A DNA stretch of 33,954 bases, taken from Parabacteroides sp. Lineage in GTDB: Bacteria; Bacteroidota; Bacteroidia; Bacteroidales; Tannerellaceae. The translations under genes and the position numbers were made by a program. Location: the NCBI GenBank assembly GCA_017937385.1, contig JAGBDR010000086.1, positions 1 to 33,954 on the forward strand, read 5' to 3'. The notes under the pieces are model-generated. The model ran no database searches, was not told the DNA's origin, and saw only the letters and a program-made list of their open reading frames with translations. Below are positions 6,768 to 33,954 of the stretch, piece after piece (position 1 is the first letter of the stretch; each line of letters begins with the position of its first letter).

Positions 6768-7604
6768 ATGGAATCAATACGTTTACGGGAACAGGAGCCG
6801 TTCATTGCCGGAACAAACGAAATCATGAACATACCCGTCAACCAAATCGCCAAACTGGAGGGAGCGACCATCTTTTTTTGCCATCGTGGCATGGCGCGTC
6901 TGGAAATCGACTTGCAATCATACGAGATCGTAGCGAACACGCAACTCGTGTTGCTTCCCGGCTCCATCATCAACTGCACGTATATCAGCAACGACTATAC
7001 GACCTCCTACATCGATTTCTCCCGGACCTTGTTCGAAGAAATCACCTCCCGCCTCGATCCGTCGTTCTTCCGTTTCCTGAAAGAACATCCCTGCATTGTT
7101 GTTCCGGAAGAGCGTGTCAAACCGGTCATCGGCCTGACCCTTGCCATGGAAGATCTTTACAAAGACCAGGCGAACTGTTTCCGCCTTCAGATATTCAAGA
7201 ACTACGTGCAGAACTTCCTGTTGGACTTTTACGACAAGACCCAACACCTGTTCCTGCAAAAAAAGCCGGAAGGACTGAGCCGGCAGGAAGAGATATTCAA
7301 ACGGTTCATTCATCTGGTGCTCAAACACTGCACCCGTCAACGCGAAGTCTCTTTCTACGCGGCCGAGCTGTTCATCACTCCCCGTTATCTGTCATCCGTG
7401 GTACAACACGTGACCGGCACAACAGCCAAAAGCATCATAGACCGCCACGTGATTCTCGAAATCAAGGCCCTGTTGCAATCGACCCATCTCAGCATACAGG
7501 AGATCGCCAACCAGCTTCAATTTCCGGACCAGTCGTTCTTCGGCCGGTATTTCAAGAAGCATACCGGCATCTCCCCGATGCACTACAAACGCAACCTTGG
7601 GTAA
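6768..7604 (+). CDS. AraC-family transcriptional regulator
   Basis: Cytoplasmic DNA-binding regulator of 278 residues. The N-terminal half (about residues 1-170) resembles a cupin-type sensing domain. The C-terminal 95 residues hold the paired helix-turn-helix of the AraC family, with AELFITPRYLSSVVQHVTG as the first unit and LSIQEIANQLQFPDQSFFGR as the second, ending in the signature FKKHTGISPMHYKR. The open frame extends upstream to 6696, but the promoter box at 6741-6748 and the MESIRLREQE start favour the ATG at 6768. The gene is divergent from the RND operon and shares its upstream region, so it is probably the operon's regulator. The inducer is unknown. Confidence 0.93.
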   Translation: MESIRLREQEPFIAGTNEIMNIPVNQIAKLEGATIFFCHRGMARLEIDLQSYEIVANTQLVLLPGSIINCTYISNDYTTSYIDFSRTLFEEITSRLDPSFFRFLKEHPCIVVPEERVKPVIGLTLAMEDLYKDQANCFRLQIFKNYVQNFLLDFYDKTQHLFLQKKPEGLSRQEEIFKRFIHLVLKHCTRQREVSFYAAELFITPRYLSSVVQHVTGTTAKSIIDRHVILEIKALLQSTHLSIQEIANQLQFPDQSFFGRYFKKHTGISPMHYKRNLG

Positions 7605-7636: not shown

Positions 7637-7724
7637 TTCCATAAGCATGAAAATCCGGTTCCATAGGCATGAAACTTTTATTCCATGGGCATGGAATTTC
7701 TATTTCATAGGCATGAAACGGTTT
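7637..7724. repeat. Array A: four 22-bp tandem palindromic repeats
   Basis: Four units of exactly 22 bp start at 7637, 7659, 7681 and 7703. Each begins with a 16-base near-palindrome: TTCCATAAGCATGAAA, TTCCATAGGCATGAAA, TTCCATGGGCATGGAA and TTTCATAGGCATGAAA. A 6-base spacer that is not conserved follows. Units 3 and 4 have perfectly complementary 4-base arms (TTCC/GGAA and TTTC/GAAA), a compensating pair of changes. Units 1 and 2 have one arm mismatch. The period is not a multiple of three, so this is not coding. It lies 32 bases after the AraC stop and ends 40 bases before the next promoter box. Confidence 0.9.
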
Positions 7725-9024: not shown

Positions 9025-9031
9025 AAGAATG

Positions 9032-9102
9032 GACAATTGACAATGGAGAATTGACAATTAGTTGTCAGGGTCTTTTCATTGTCAATTGTCAATTGTCAAT
9101 TC
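9032..9102. repeat. Inverted clusters of the ATTGACAATT repeat
   Basis: Copies of GACAATTGACAAT and AATTGACAATT occupy 9032-9059, and their complements (ATTGTCAATTGTCAATT) occupy 9078-9102. The left outer block (9032-9045) can pair with 9077-9090, and the left inner block (9048-9059) with 9091-9102, so alternative hairpins are possible. Short repeats of this kind are common between Bacteroidales genes. The cluster separates the dehydrogenase from the radical SAM gene and could attenuate read-through. Confidence 0.6.
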
Positions 9103-11678: not shown

Positions 11679-11695
11679 AAAGAGCAAGCCGGCGG

Positions 11696-11856
11696 GAGGT
11701 GCCGCAGCCCCTTTCCGACATCTGCAGCAGGTCTCTTCCGGGAGCTGCTGCAGATGTCTTCCAAGAGCTGCAGCAGATGTCCCCCGAGAGCTGCAGCAGA
11801 TGCCGGAGGAGAGCTGCAGCAGGTGTCGGCAAGCATCTGCCGCAGTTCCTGAAGAA
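11696..11856. repeat. Array B: seven 23-bp tandem repeats after recA
   Basis: Units start at 11696, 11719, 11742, 11765, 11788, 11811 and 11834, always 23 bp apart. The consensus is GAGCTGCAGCAGATGTC plus a variable pyrimidine-rich or GA-rich end. The four middle copies are closest to consensus, and the first and last are degenerate. Each unit contains CTGCAG or GCTGCAGC self-complementary cores, and adjacent units can pair GCAGC with GCTGC. The period is not a multiple of three, and the open frames crossing it read as low-complexity Ser, Ala, Leu and Gln, so it is non-coding. There are no unique spacers, so it is not a CRISPR array. Confidence 0.9.
11717..11758 (+). terminator. Strong hairpin downstream of recA, inside array B
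   Basis: GACATCTGCAGCAG (11717-11730) and its exact complement (11745-11758) form a 14-bp stem around a 14-base loop that can pair further (CTC with GAG). It lies 38 bases after the recA stop. No T-run follows, so intrinsic termination is uncertain; pausing or RNA 3'-end protection is equally possible. Confidence 0.5.
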
Positions 11857-21872: not shown

Positions 21873-22622
21873 TCATCCGTTGGGAACAACGAACTACAAG
21901 AGGAATACCGCGCCATACAGAAAGCTTTCTACGGTGTCTTGAAAACCATGGACGGATATATCAAACTGGCATTCCTGACAGGAGTCACCAAGTTCGGGAA
22001 AGTCAGCGTGTTCAGCGATTTGAACAACCTCATGGACATATCCATGGACGACCGATACATTGAAATATGCGGAATCACAGAAAAGGAAATCCATACCTAT
22101 ATGGAAGAGGGAGTGCACGAACTCGCCTGCGCACAAGGCATGACCTACGAGGCTACCTGCCTGAAACTGAAGGAACGGTATGACGGTTACCATTTCACCG
22201 AAAACTCAATCGGTCTATACAACCCTTTCAGCCTGCTGAACACATTCGCCAAAAGGAAATTCGGAGACTATTGGTTCGAGACAGGAACGCCCTCCTACTT
22301 GGTGGAACTGTTGAAGCATGCCCATTACGACCTGTACGAAATGGCGAACACCGAAACCGATGCCGATGTGCTCAACAGCATCGACGCGGCTTCCCGAAAT
22401 CCCATTCCCGTCATCTATCAAAGCGGATATCTGACCATCAAAAGATACGACCCTGAATTTGGTATCTACAAATTGGGATTTCCGAACTTGGAAGTAGAGG
22501 AAGGATTCGTGAAATACCTCCTACCCTTCTATACCAGTGTCAGTGCGTCCAAAATGCCTTTTGAAATCGGGGTGAACTTCTCGGCCGAGACACGGAACAT
22601 CGAGCGGTGGGTGGTGGAATAA
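21873..22622 (+). pseudogene. Eroded AAA-ATPase-like/PD-(D/E)XK_9 family gene
   Basis: The frame is open directly from the apbE stop for 249 codons. It matches the middle of the large Bacteroidales ATP-binding family that joins an AAA-ATPase_like domain to a PDDEXK_9 nuclease domain: YRAIQKAFYGVLKTMDGYIKL, FLTGVTKFGKVSVFSDLNNL, YWFETGTPSYLVELL and SGYLTIKRYDPEF. The N-terminal P-loop half is missing. The frame then jumps from LLPFYTSVSA straight to IGVNFSAETRN, the usual extreme C-terminus, so the nuclease domain (roughly 130-150 residues in relatives, from memory) has been deleted in frame. No normal start is present; a TTG at 21939 or ATG at 21948 could give about 225 residues. It is probably non-functional. 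Confidence 0.75.
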
Positions 22623-22643: not shown

Positions 22644-22703
22644 ACGGATGCCCATCCGTTTGAAAAGGGATGCCCATCCGTTTGAAGACGGATAAGCATC
22701 CCT
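22644..22703. repeat. Array C: three 22-bp tandem palindromic repeats
   Basis: Three 16-base near-palindromes start at 22644, 22666 and 22688, exactly 22 bp apart: ACGGATGCCCATCCGT, AGGGATGCCCATCCGT and ACGGATAAGCATCCCT. They are separated by 6-base spacers (TTGAAA, TTGAAG). The middle 8 bases are ATGCCCAT, which is ATGGGCAT on the other strand, or ATAAGCAT. These are the same cores as in the array at 7637-7724, but the 4-base arms differ (ACGG/CCGT rather than TTCC/GGAA). The array follows the eroded ATPase gene by 21 bases. Unit 3 is followed by a short T-run, so on the plus strand it could also act as a weak terminator. Confidence 0.88.
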
Positions 22704-22745
22704 TTTTTGAAAGGCCAAATCGCCTATCTAATGCATACGCGAGCA

Positions 22746-25130
22746 TCACATGAGCGTCACTTTCACCAACTCATTCTTTTTCTGGTGCAAGCTGACACGT
22801 ACCTTACGGTCGTCGCCATACTTCCAGTCGGTCACCGGAACATCATTCACCAACACTTCCGATGGGCGTTCCGGAGCATCGATTTCCAAACAATAGGTTC
22901 GCGATTCACACATGCCGTCATACGAACCTTTCACGGGAAAGACGGTAAACTCGATCTTCCGGCCCTCTTTCCGGCATTCAAAGCGGGTTTCGGCAATCTT
23001 CCCCTCTTCATATTGGTAGGTTATGCCATCGTCTTCATACAAGGTATAGGAAGACAAGCCTTTGGGAAATACTTTCACCGTCAAGGTATCTAACGGCTTC
23101 TCCCCGATGAATTGCATATCTTGCTGGAACGGGATGATCGCTCCTTCGCGGACAAACAACAATCCGGCGCGATTATCAGGTATCGTATGCTTGATTTCCC
23201 TTCCGCCGGCCACCTTCTCGCCGGTCCAGAAGTCAAACCAGTTTCCTTTCGGCAAGTAGATCGAATCGCTGAAAATGCTAAGCAAGAAGTGCTCGCCAAA
23301 CATATATTGGTAAATCATATCGTCCGCTTTCCGGTCGTCCGGGAACATCAAAGGCATGGAACGTATGATCGGCATTCCGGTCTGCGCTCCCTCCAATGCC
23401 GCCGAATAAATGTAAGGCATCAAAGAATAGCGCAACTTCACATAATCCCGATATATATTCTTATTCTTTTCCGGAAAATAGAAAGGTTGTAACAAGGAAT
23501 ACCAACTGTTGATCTGTACCCAAGGCAAGAACAAACCGAAATGCAAGCTCTGCATCTCCTGGTCTTTACCGACCGACATCACATCGCAGGAGGTATTCAT
23601 AAATCCGCTCATGCCTAAATTCAGCTGGTCGAACAAAGCGGTGCGCCCGCCTCCATTGTCCCCGCTTGTCGAAGCGCTCCAATGTTGCGTGCCGGCCCAC
23701 CCTGCGGTATAATGATGCCAGGAGCGGCGTCCGGTATGTTTACGCGTCATCTTGTACATCTGTTTCGGAAGCAAAATCTGGTTCAGGTTATGCATTTCCT
23801 TATCCGTCCGCCCATTATAATAGTTGAACCCCGGATGCTCATCGATCGTACGGGCAGGGTCCAATTTGAAGCCGTCCACTCCGTTATCCATGAAATGGGT
23901 CAGGTGGTCCATCCAATGCTCCAAGCCGGAAGTATCTTTTCCCGCCTGTAGAGCCAGTTCGTCTTCTTCGGCAATGCTCAAGTCATACTCCTCGCACAGC
24001 CAAAGCCCCAGACGGAACCCCATCCCATGCAAACGGCCGATCAACAGACGATGGTTCTCCTTTTTCGGATAACGGACCGAATCCCAATAAGCCTCCGCCG
24101 AAAAGAGTTTATAATTCCATTTCTTCTTGGTCGAGAAATCATAGCGTTTCTCCATCCATTGCGGTTCGAGCCAAAAGAGGTCGCAGGGGACGCCCATTTC
24201 ACGGAAACGCACGGCATCACTCAGGATGTCGAACTGGTCTTCCAGCATATTCGGACCGAAGCATAGCCCGTATGCATACTTCGGCAACAGGTAGGGCCGG
24301 CCGGTAATGGCCGTATAATCATTGATCACATCCGGCATCGAATTGCCGAACATCAAGTAGAAGTCGGCTTCATCTGTCGTATTATAAATGGATAAAACAT
24401 CCGGCTGGTAGCTACCGATATCGAAGAAGTTCTTCCGCGTCGTGTTGTTGAAGACACCCCAGTTTTCGGAACTGATGACAAAAGGCATGGGGATCTCGGC
24501 ATGCTGGTAAGTGGTCCACATACGCAAGAGTTCCCCCCGGTGTTGGATATGATCGCGACTTGTACTGCCGCCGCCATAGAAACGCTCGCCGTCTTTCAAC
24601 GAGATCGAGAGGATGCTGGTATGCTTGTAATCGCCGGTTTCCGCCTGGTCTTTCAAGGCACCCGGGTTTTGGTCGTCGCCTATGATCGTGCCGTTGTTGG
24701 AGACTTTCATGTCCTTATATCGGGCATTGATCACTTCTCCCAAATCGGTACACAACCGGTCGGAAGCGGTTAGAAAGACCGCTTTTTCGATAATCACCCG
24801 GCCTTTCCGGTCGGAAACCGATAGGGCTCCGGTCTTTTTATCGATTTTCAACCGATAAGAGCCGGTCGCCACTTCAAACGTCTGTTTGTTGTCTTTCGGG
24901 GAAACCGGAACCGGCTCCCAATCCGTTTTAATAATTCCGTAGCGTTGCATCAACGACTCGGAAAAAGTCGAACGAGGAGTAACCCGAATCCGGAATATCC
25001 CATCCGTACAGACTTCCACATTCATGTTCAGCCCGTTCTGCAAGCGGACATCGAAAGACTGTTTCTCCTTTGAGGCAAAAGCTGACTGCAAGAAAAACAG
25101 GCATACAAGCAAATAGTAGATCTTTTTCAT
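22746..25130 (-). CDS. Secreted glycoside hydrolase family 31 enzyme
   Basis: Probable periplasmic or exported retaining alpha-glycosidase (alpha-glucosidase or alpha-xylosidase type). It has 794 residues. A signal peptide (MKKIYYLLVCLFFLQSAFAS) is followed by the N-terminal beta-sandwich. The catalytic barrel has the nucleophile Asp424 in DGFKLD and the likely acid/base Asp491 in STSGDNGGG. C-terminal beta-domains follow, the last being DUF5110-like (FPKGLSSYTLYEDDGITYQYEEG). The FKLDPART sequence after the nucleophile differs from the common WNDMNE form, so specificity cannot be read with confidence. No SusC/SusD pair or other glycan genes adjoin it, so it appears to stand alone. The promoter box is at 25152-25159. 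Confidence 0.93.
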   Translation of the reverse strand: MKKIYYLLVCLFFLQSAFASKEKQSFDVRLQNGLNMNVEVCTDGIFRIRVTPRSTFSESLMQRYGIIKTDWEPVPVSPKDNKQTFEVATGSYRLKIDKKTGALSVSDRKGRVIIEKAVFLTASDRLCTDLGEVINARYKDMKVSNNGTIIGDDQNPGALKDQAETGDYKHTSILSISLKDGERFYGGGSTSRDHIQHRGELLRMWTTYQHAEIPMPFVISSENWGVFNNTTRKNFFDIGSYQPDVLSIYNTTDEADFYLMFGNSMPDVINDYTAITGRPYLLPKYAYGLCFGPNMLEDQFDILSDAVRFREMGVPCDLFWLEPQWMEKRYDFSTKKKWNYKLFSAEAYWDSVRYPKKENHRLLIGRLHGMGFRLGLWLCEEYDLSIAEEDELALQAGKDTSGLEHWMDHLTHFMDNGVDGFKLDPARTIDEHPGFNYYNGRTDKEMHNLNQILLPKQMYKMTRKHTGRRSWHHYTAGWAGTQHWSASTSGDNGGGRTALFDQLNLGMSGFMNTSCDVMSVGKDQEMQSLHFGLFLPWVQINSWYSLLQPFYFPEKNKNIYRDYVKLRYSLMPYIYSAALEGAQTGMPIIRSMPLMFPDDRKADDMIYQYMFGEHFLLSIFSDSIYLPKGNWFDFWTGEKVAGGREIKHTIPDNRAGLLFVREGAIIPFQQDMQFIGEKPLDTLTVKVFPKGLSSYTLYEDDGITYQYEEGKIAETRFECRKEGRKIEFTVFPVKGSYDGMCESRTYCLEIDAPERPSEVLVNDVPVTDWKYGDDRKVRVSLHQKKNELVKVTLM

Positions 25131-33716: not shown

Positions 33717-33726
33717 CTTAACTAAA

Positions 33727-33834
<108 letters not shown>

Positions 33835-33954
33835 TAATACCTTTTACGCTTTTCGGCTCTTAACCGTAGCTCTTAAGATTTTGACCGGACAACTCCATCT
33901 TCAGATCCGTAACCCTTACTTTCAGAGCTTATCCTAATTCATATTACATGAACC
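33835..33954 (-). other. 23S-5S spacer of the rRNA operon
   Basis: The 120 bases upstream of 5S on the minus strand show no conserved 23S motif that I can identify, so they are probably the internal spacer. The 23S gene should begin (its 3' end) just beyond the right edge of the window. No tRNA is seen in it. Confidence 0.5.

Follow-up and report, generated by a model that had tools for sequence, protein, structure and literature searches.

A palindromic core repeated at two-turn pitch in Parabacteroides, with a predicted bidirectional terminator between convergent genes

The DNA analysed here (the window) is a stretch of 33,954 nucleotides from a Parabacteroides draft genome (G000; 128 contigs, 90.5% complete). 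Its array C, a set of short palindromic units, lies between two convergent genes, while arrays A and B lie elsewhere in the window:

21939..22622, + strand: gene for a 227-aa protein; 25 bp from its stop to the first array C core
22644..22659, − strand: array C unit 1, ACGG-ATGCCCAT-CCGT as read on +; its core is ATGGGCAT on the − strand
22666..22681, − strand: array C unit 2, AGGG-ATGCCCAT-CCGT as read on +; three of four arm pairs within the unit
22688..22703, + strand: array C unit 3, ACGG-ATAAGCAT-CCCT; three of four arm pairs within the unit; orientation opposite to units 1 and 2
22648-22655 (ATGCCCAT), 22670-22677 (ATGCCCAT) and 22692-22699 (ATAAGCAT): array C cores, pitch exactly 22 bp
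22663..22708, no strand assigned: hairpin of array C units 2 and 3, arms 22663-22681 and 22688-22706
22746..25130, − strand: convergent gene for a GH31 family glycoside hydrolase; 46 bp from the last array C core to its stop
7641..7714, + strand: array A, four units with ATRRGCAT-type cores, 22-bp pitch and TTCC/GGAA-type arms
11694..11845, no strand assigned: array B, tandem 23-bp units with the palindromic core CTGCWGCAG, directly after recA

The 227-aa protein had no match in Pfam or NCBIfam. Array C is present where an earlier note, made from the sequence alone, had placed an array of 22-bp period; it has three units, with cores at 22648, 22670 and 22692. The ACGG/CCGT arms which that note ascribed to the whole array hold for unit 1, the only one with fully complementary arms, but not for unit 2 (AGGG/CCGT) or unit 3 (ACGG/CCCT), each of which carries one mismatch. 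Perfect arm pairing is found between units, the left arm of unit 2 pairing with the right arm of unit 3 and the right arm of unit 2 with the left arm of unit 3. This inverted pair is 89% complementary across 19 nt and is flanked by six T on the + strand and four T on the − strand; the region folds with z of -5.3 on + and -6.3 on −. On both strands, as in intrinsic terminators, a hairpin and a T tract follow soon after a stop codon. A stricter terminator scan recovered the inner stem on the − strand only and none on +. From this hairpin of opposed units, with its 19-nt arms and its A and T tracts between convergent genes, we propose that array C serves as a bidirectional intrinsic terminator; judged by sequence, units 2 and 3 probably serve both the 227-aa gene and the GH31 gene in this way.

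Behind the GH31 homologue at other loci, the terminator-like hairpin is an inverted core pair at 22 bp in L105 and L098 and of the ordinary kind in L032 and L033; L031 shows no array. Searches of Rfam 15 gave 13 matches at array C, all far below gathering scores, and across the whole window only 5S rRNA reached its gathering score (the gene lies at 33726-33836, − strand). An Rfam family was rejected as the identity of the arrays, since none reaches gathering score.

The earlier note's second locus with the same core and geometry was likewise confirmed: array A holds four cores of the same kind at 22-bp pitch, and begins 36 bp past the stop of an AraC-type gene (6768-7604) and ends 113 bp ahead of a saccharopine dehydrogenase gene. 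Array B resembles arrays A and C in the design of its pitch, but its core is unrelated; CTGCWGCAG is found as a core a second time between genes on contig C94 (~147330-147445). Tandem 7-bp repeats of the AATTGAC/ATTGTCA and CATAAAT types occur at 9028-9101 and 1-55 of the window, and words related to them are among the most over-represented intergenic 8-mers of a 360-kb sample of G000.

Arrays A and C belong to a family whose core is ATRRGCAT in either orientation and whose pitch is 22 bp; a second class, made up of dispersed elements, has a pitch of 23 bp. The pattern core-N14-core had 70 matches in G000 and none when reversed, which upholds the view that a fixed core and a fixed geometry mark a real repeat family. 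With the gap left free between 0 and 30 bases, 122 core pairs were found against 3 in the reversed control and, among the matches listed, all but one were spaced 22 or 23; inverted core neighbours occurred at 19 places (control 0), 17 of them at these same spacings. No in-phase core pair arose in 400 order-2 simulations of the window and, taken with the 70 matches against 0 genome-wide, this led us to reject a chance origin of array C. The check on 22-bp periodicity which the earlier note had suggested thus came out in its favour, neither shuffled nor reversed controls reproducing the periodicity.

Sixty loci fetched from G000 yielded, with the window, 68 arrays. The 22-bp class accounts for 45 of them (128 units) and the 23-bp class for 23 (86 units). 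The 360-kb sample, which consists of the two largest contigs and is not random, contains ATGGGCAT 25 times in 47 kb of intergenic sequence against an order-3 expectation of 1.6, an expectation that is low at order 3 only; at order 6 it is 21.1, because the repeats themselves set it. The same word occurs 11 times in 313 kb of coding sequence (order-6 expectation 10.2). A coding repeat was rejected on this latter count and because 22 is not a multiple of 3. The pitch remains exact over diverged spacers, the mean pairwise identity of central spacer bases being 0.36 in the 22-bp class and 0.52 in the 23-bp class. In seven genomes, cores no more than 60 bp apart at the array loci retrieved were spaced 22 or 23, except for 3 of 44 and 1 of 15. 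Core and pitch are the constants of the family; hairpin potential is not. The fixed spacing of 22-23 bases suggests that a protein reads the repeats, although tandem duplication by itself yields a uniform pitch at birth, which counts against this.

According to the earlier note, the arrays are structured repeats whose self-complementary arms identify the locus. The arms of G000 are TTCC/GGAA with variants, plus a CGG/CCG subtype, and other species have other dialects; an arm sequence is mostly such a dialect, common to many loci. Nor does self-complementarity define the units. Perfect 4-bp arms are found in a minority: 33 of 128 units in the best set and 3/86, 18/87, 5/25, 2/35 and 0/14 in the other genome and class sets that comprise five arrays or more; the counts leave out another two sets, which have two arrays apiece. 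When one unit per array was compared with re-dealt arms, the innermost arm pair was complementary in a fraction of 0.79 against 0.68 in the 22-bp class of G000, 0.70 against 0.57 in G001 and 0.72 against 0.46 in G012. The corresponding values were 0.25 against 0.33 in G010, 0.25 against 0.34 in G140 and 0.53 against 0.63 in the 23-bp class of G000. The excess of arm complementarity that had been anticipated is therefore real but modest in the first three sets and absent from the last three. Covariation of arms, sought in 23 aligned elements of the 23-bp class, was supported under none of three hairpin models, paired cells amounting to 68.9% observed against 71.0% shuffled, 77.9% against 78.1% and 69.3% against 72.7%; in these models the true register paired better than slid registers. 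The modest innermost-pair excess, and the presence of CGG/CCG beside TTCC/GGAA arms, speak for arms as identifiers of a locus. With most units lacking fully paired arms, arms shared among several loci, two genomes without complementarity and a class without covariation, we find that reading scarcely tenable; the arm-pairing test largely refutes it.

The arrays lie mostly between genes. Those of G000 comprise 38 in co-directional gaps, 14 in convergent and six in divergent ones, eight inside ORFs and two at contig edges; gene calls came from a simple ORF scorer, and these counts vary by one in several classes. Within co-directional gaps the array is nearer the upstream stop than the next start in 30 of 38 cases (52 of 61 across six genomes), where symmetry would lead one to expect half. 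The array at L112 (~2501-2530) occupies the C-terminal tail of a protein of the FtsW/RodA/SpoVE family (PF01098) and is immediately followed by a gene for a glycosyltransferase 28 (PF03033 and PF04101), which we take to be of the MurG type, and the array at L140 (~2501-2530) lies inside an Exo_endo_phos_3 protein; the counterparts of these two in-gene arrays in another species are L201 and L230.

Such placement bears on whether the arrays are operators of one transcription factor controlling the adjacent genes. The fixed core, the two-turn phasing and the indifference to core orientation would suit operators, as would the position of array A beside an AraC-type gene and the four of nine G010 arrays that lie in divergent gaps. 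We nonetheless regard this as very improbable, since 14 of the 68 G000 arrays lie between convergent genes, where a promoter is not expected, co-directional arrays favour the stop in the 30 of 38 cases given above, and 6 of 68 arrays fall in divergent gaps though 13,525 of the 44,973 bp that lie between genes in the sample belong to such gaps. The more general assertion that a fixed core with locus-specific arms is unlike a site for one transcription factor was not established; a core and pitch with degenerate flanks fits a protein that binds duplex DNA.

Terminator-like hairpins were found at 37 of the 61 G000 gene 3' ends that face an array (32 overlapping the array and 5 before it), leaving 24 without, and at 61 of 120 control 3' ends with no array. 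Ends that face an array are therefore hardly better terminators than others and, as a hairpin overlaps the array at 32 of 61 ends and controls reach 61 of 120, in about half of cases the array stands in for a terminator instead of supplying an extra one.

Folding was assessed as the mean best-strand z, which in G000 was -4.3 for the 45 arrays of the 22-bp class and -5.5 for the 23 arrays of the 23-bp class, against -1.85 for 68 intergenic controls. Mean z with 30-nt flanks was low in G001 and G012 too; array-only folding (10-nt flanks) was weak (-1.64 in G001, -1.93 in G012). Six of the nine G010 arrays have all units in the same orientation and fold no better than shuffles, and the three with inverted units fold strongly. 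The six G140 arrays hardly fold, most of them no better than shuffles, and keep core and pitch; arms in these two genomes are not palindromic. One might suppose from the G000 values, from the strong 3'-end placement with the array itself forming the hairpin at 32 of 61 facing ends, and from the strongly folding G010 arrays, that these are REP/BIME-like repeats whose whole function lies in the RNA: as hairpins at the 3' ends of transcripts they would end transcription or protect the mRNA, core and pitch being by-products of hairpin geometry. Palindromic repeats, however, beat shuffles through symmetry alone, cores are more conserved than spacers, the 23-bp class lacks covariation, and the same-orientation G010 arrays and most G140 arrays are unfolded yet retain core and pitch. 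We consider a purely RNA-level role unlikely, if by no means far-fetched.

The 23-bp class consists of a dispersed element of ~88 bp with sharp borders and four cores, of which the first is usually inverted. Its information content is 0.13 and 0.20 bits in the flanks, 0.97-1.31 in the spacers and 1.56-1.88 in the cores. Over 18 aligned elements, consensus identity was 0.96 for the inverted first core and 0.99, 0.97 and 0.89 for the others, against 0.74, 0.73 and 0.82 for the spacers, a contrast somewhat inflated because the alignment register was chosen by total core match. The inverted first core, which the search pattern did not demand, was ATGCCCAT in 15 of these 18 elements and ATGCCTAT in one. 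At one locus (L134) the orthologous sites of G015, G012 and G014 lack the element, and the class thereby combines the dispersed copies, defined borders and empty site in relatives that characterise a MITE. No tested boundary pair gave identical 4-mers, as a target-site duplication would, in at least 4 of 23 copies.

All 92 core centres in the 23 aligned elements are GG or CC, with both states seen at homologous positions; GG-type centres were imposed by the search pattern only on those cores through which arrays were found and, when GC and CG were also permitted, centres among the matches listed were GG or CC only. The 23-bp class is present in 8 of 38 genomes of the genus, G004 among them. 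Matches to the element in a plasmid collection comprised 8 records, all labelled P. distasonis, 7 of which had no annotated feature under the match; a phage origin was rejected, as none of 50,697 phage records matched.

The 22-bp pair was found in 18 of the 38 genus genomes, with four or more matches in nine of the 18 and a single match in six; G016 gave 2 matches in the reversed-pattern control. Pairs at exactly 22, among all pairs with gaps of 0-30, numbered 40/45 in G001 (6 in the reversed control), 68/72 in G010 (4), 10/16 in G012 (4), 12/16 in G026 (2), 12/16 in G006 (1) and 8/13 in G140 (0), where the other 5 of 13 pairs had different spacings. Among 393 Bacteroidales genomes, only G140 exceeds two matches outside the family (it has 8), and G363, of the same family, has 3. 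G140 belongs to another Bacteroidales family and carries, at L215-L220, ATAGGCAT arrays of 22-bp pitch with different arms. None of 14 other genomes of its own family had a match and, G140 being alone among 15, transfer or a binning error is possible. No direct core pair was present in 75 loci of named relatives.

Conservation in place is observed at some loci. Eleven pairs of loci from different species correspond on either side of the array, and each member of the pair has one; cores are often kept and spacers changed, a pattern favoured because both members were found by their arrays, and unit number differs between orthologous arrays. These data allow a further alternative to be weighed, that the arrays are neutral or selfish repeats, akin to MITEs or minisatellites, which spread without host function and survive behind stop codons and in loose protein tails. 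The sharp-bordered ~88-bp element and its absence from the L134 site in G015, G012 and G014 suit this account, and so do the arrays in the FtsW/RodA-type tail at L112 and inside the L140 protein, the patchy distribution (18 of 38 and 8 of 38 genomes for the two classes) and the variable unit number of orthologues. The eleven both-flank pairs between species, several with cores kept and spacers changed, the lack of a target-site duplication and the exact pitch over diverged spacers do not, and we hold it to be an improbable explanation overall.

Our preferred reading, to which we give about an even chance of being correct, is that array C is one locus of a REP/BIME-like family which acts here as a bidirectional intrinsic terminator, and whose core at two-turn pitch is read by a putative duplex-binding protein. 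It has two layers. The first is the hairpin of units 2 and 3, which we infer would terminate transcription in vivo. The second is the family-wide signal, an 8-bp core recurring every two helical turns (22 or 23 bp), whose reader would most likely be a sequence-specific protein that contacts one face of the duplex, accepts either core orientation, and may hold or mobilise the arrays. Several results count against this reading. A cognate protein was not found, the only candidate tested being the Y1/RAYT transposase (PF01797). Arrays in divergent gaps, 4 of 9 in G010 and 3 of 6 in G140, oppose a general 3'-end role. Further results on this side are the eight of 68 G000 arrays inside ORFs, the 24 of 61 facing 3' ends without a terminator-like hairpin, the lack of a + strand result at array C in the stricter scan and the 5 of 13 G140 pairs at other spacings.

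G000 also has tandem arrays of 21-23 bp between genes that are built on other, unrelated palindromic cores, array B after recA among them. TRF rows of period 22 or 23, which include ATRRGCAT arrays and which overlap, so that rows do not equate to arrays, numbered 18 in the 360-kb G000 sample and 10 in 210 kb of genus loci, 58 loci fetched by the flanks of two arrays and thus not random. There were none in 725 kb of other Bacteroidales and none in 8 named Parabacteroides loci (68 kb), where three rows of period 21 were found. Several unrelated cores with a common 21-23-bp pitch point to a common constraint. A broader proposal, which we think distinctly unlikely, is that there is a general class of duplex-DNA arrays with unrelated palindromic cores (ATRRGCAT, CTGCWGCAG, CACAGCTGTG, CACTGCCGGAGTG, GAAGACGGTCGTC), each intergenic and at about two helical turns; every core would have a reader to itself, all of these readers belonging to an undescribed protein system that serves to organise the chromosome, to set transcription boundaries or in defence. 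As a separate observation, a repeated element of ~500 bp, apparently non-coding, adjoins arrays in G001 (L190, L193, L199, L203, L204, L207, L212); in L193 and L199 it contains 21-22-bp repeats with the core CGACCGTCTTC and, by eye, has TTATTGTA at both ends.

The arrays offer concrete baits with which to look for a DNA-binding protein in this common gut genus. The conserved quantity is the core and its helical pitch rather than a hairpin sequence, and the family accounts for terminator-like structures behind a number of Parabacteroides genes. Searches of the open-access papers in PMC yielded no description of these repeats, in line with the suggestion that the family is undescribed.

Among known systems, REP/BIME elements are similar in their short palindromic units, which are mostly extragenic, clustered, present in many copies of mixed orientation and divided into species-specific subfamilies. 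The Parabacteroides arrays show these same traits, with the exceptions of the eight of 68 inside ORFs and of the arms in G010 and G140, but differ in their strict 22/23-bp core pitch and in not tracking Y1 transposase genes. REPs or atypical structures are reported to accompany Y1 subclasses 2.4 and 2.6 of Bacteroidetes (PMC6006769), and a REP is defined by a GTAG or CGTC tag beside the palindrome (PMC3733652). That tag is absent from the 23-bp consensus and not constant in the arrays inspected. The conserved protein that was expected to accompany the arrays did not emerge from the one candidate tested: PF01797 is absent from G000, occurs in 8 of 38 genus genomes and, among array-rich genomes, is lacking in G010, G012, G006, G026 and G008 and present once in G001. 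A RAYT-driven REP was rejected on the absence of PF01797 from G000 and its failure to track the arrays.

The BrickBuilt MITE of Porphyromonas gingivalis likewise places tandem 23-nt repeats between genes of a Bacteroidales genome (PMC4596501). Its consensus, AGAYCATARTATCCTCTCRTRTG, has another core, and BrickBuilt has a leader and a tail with terminal inverted repeats (PMC4596501); it was rejected, the two consensus sequences differing when compared by eye. The 23-bp class resembles MITEs more generally as a dispersed non-coding element whose end cores are inverted in most copies and whose orthologous site is empty at one locus, but differs in that no target-site duplication was found. Intrinsic terminators, finally, resemble array C, in which a hairpin with an A tract and a T tract follows the stops of two convergent genes, whereas arrays are used so at 32 of 61 facing 3' ends only, and the core and its pitch are foreign to terminators.
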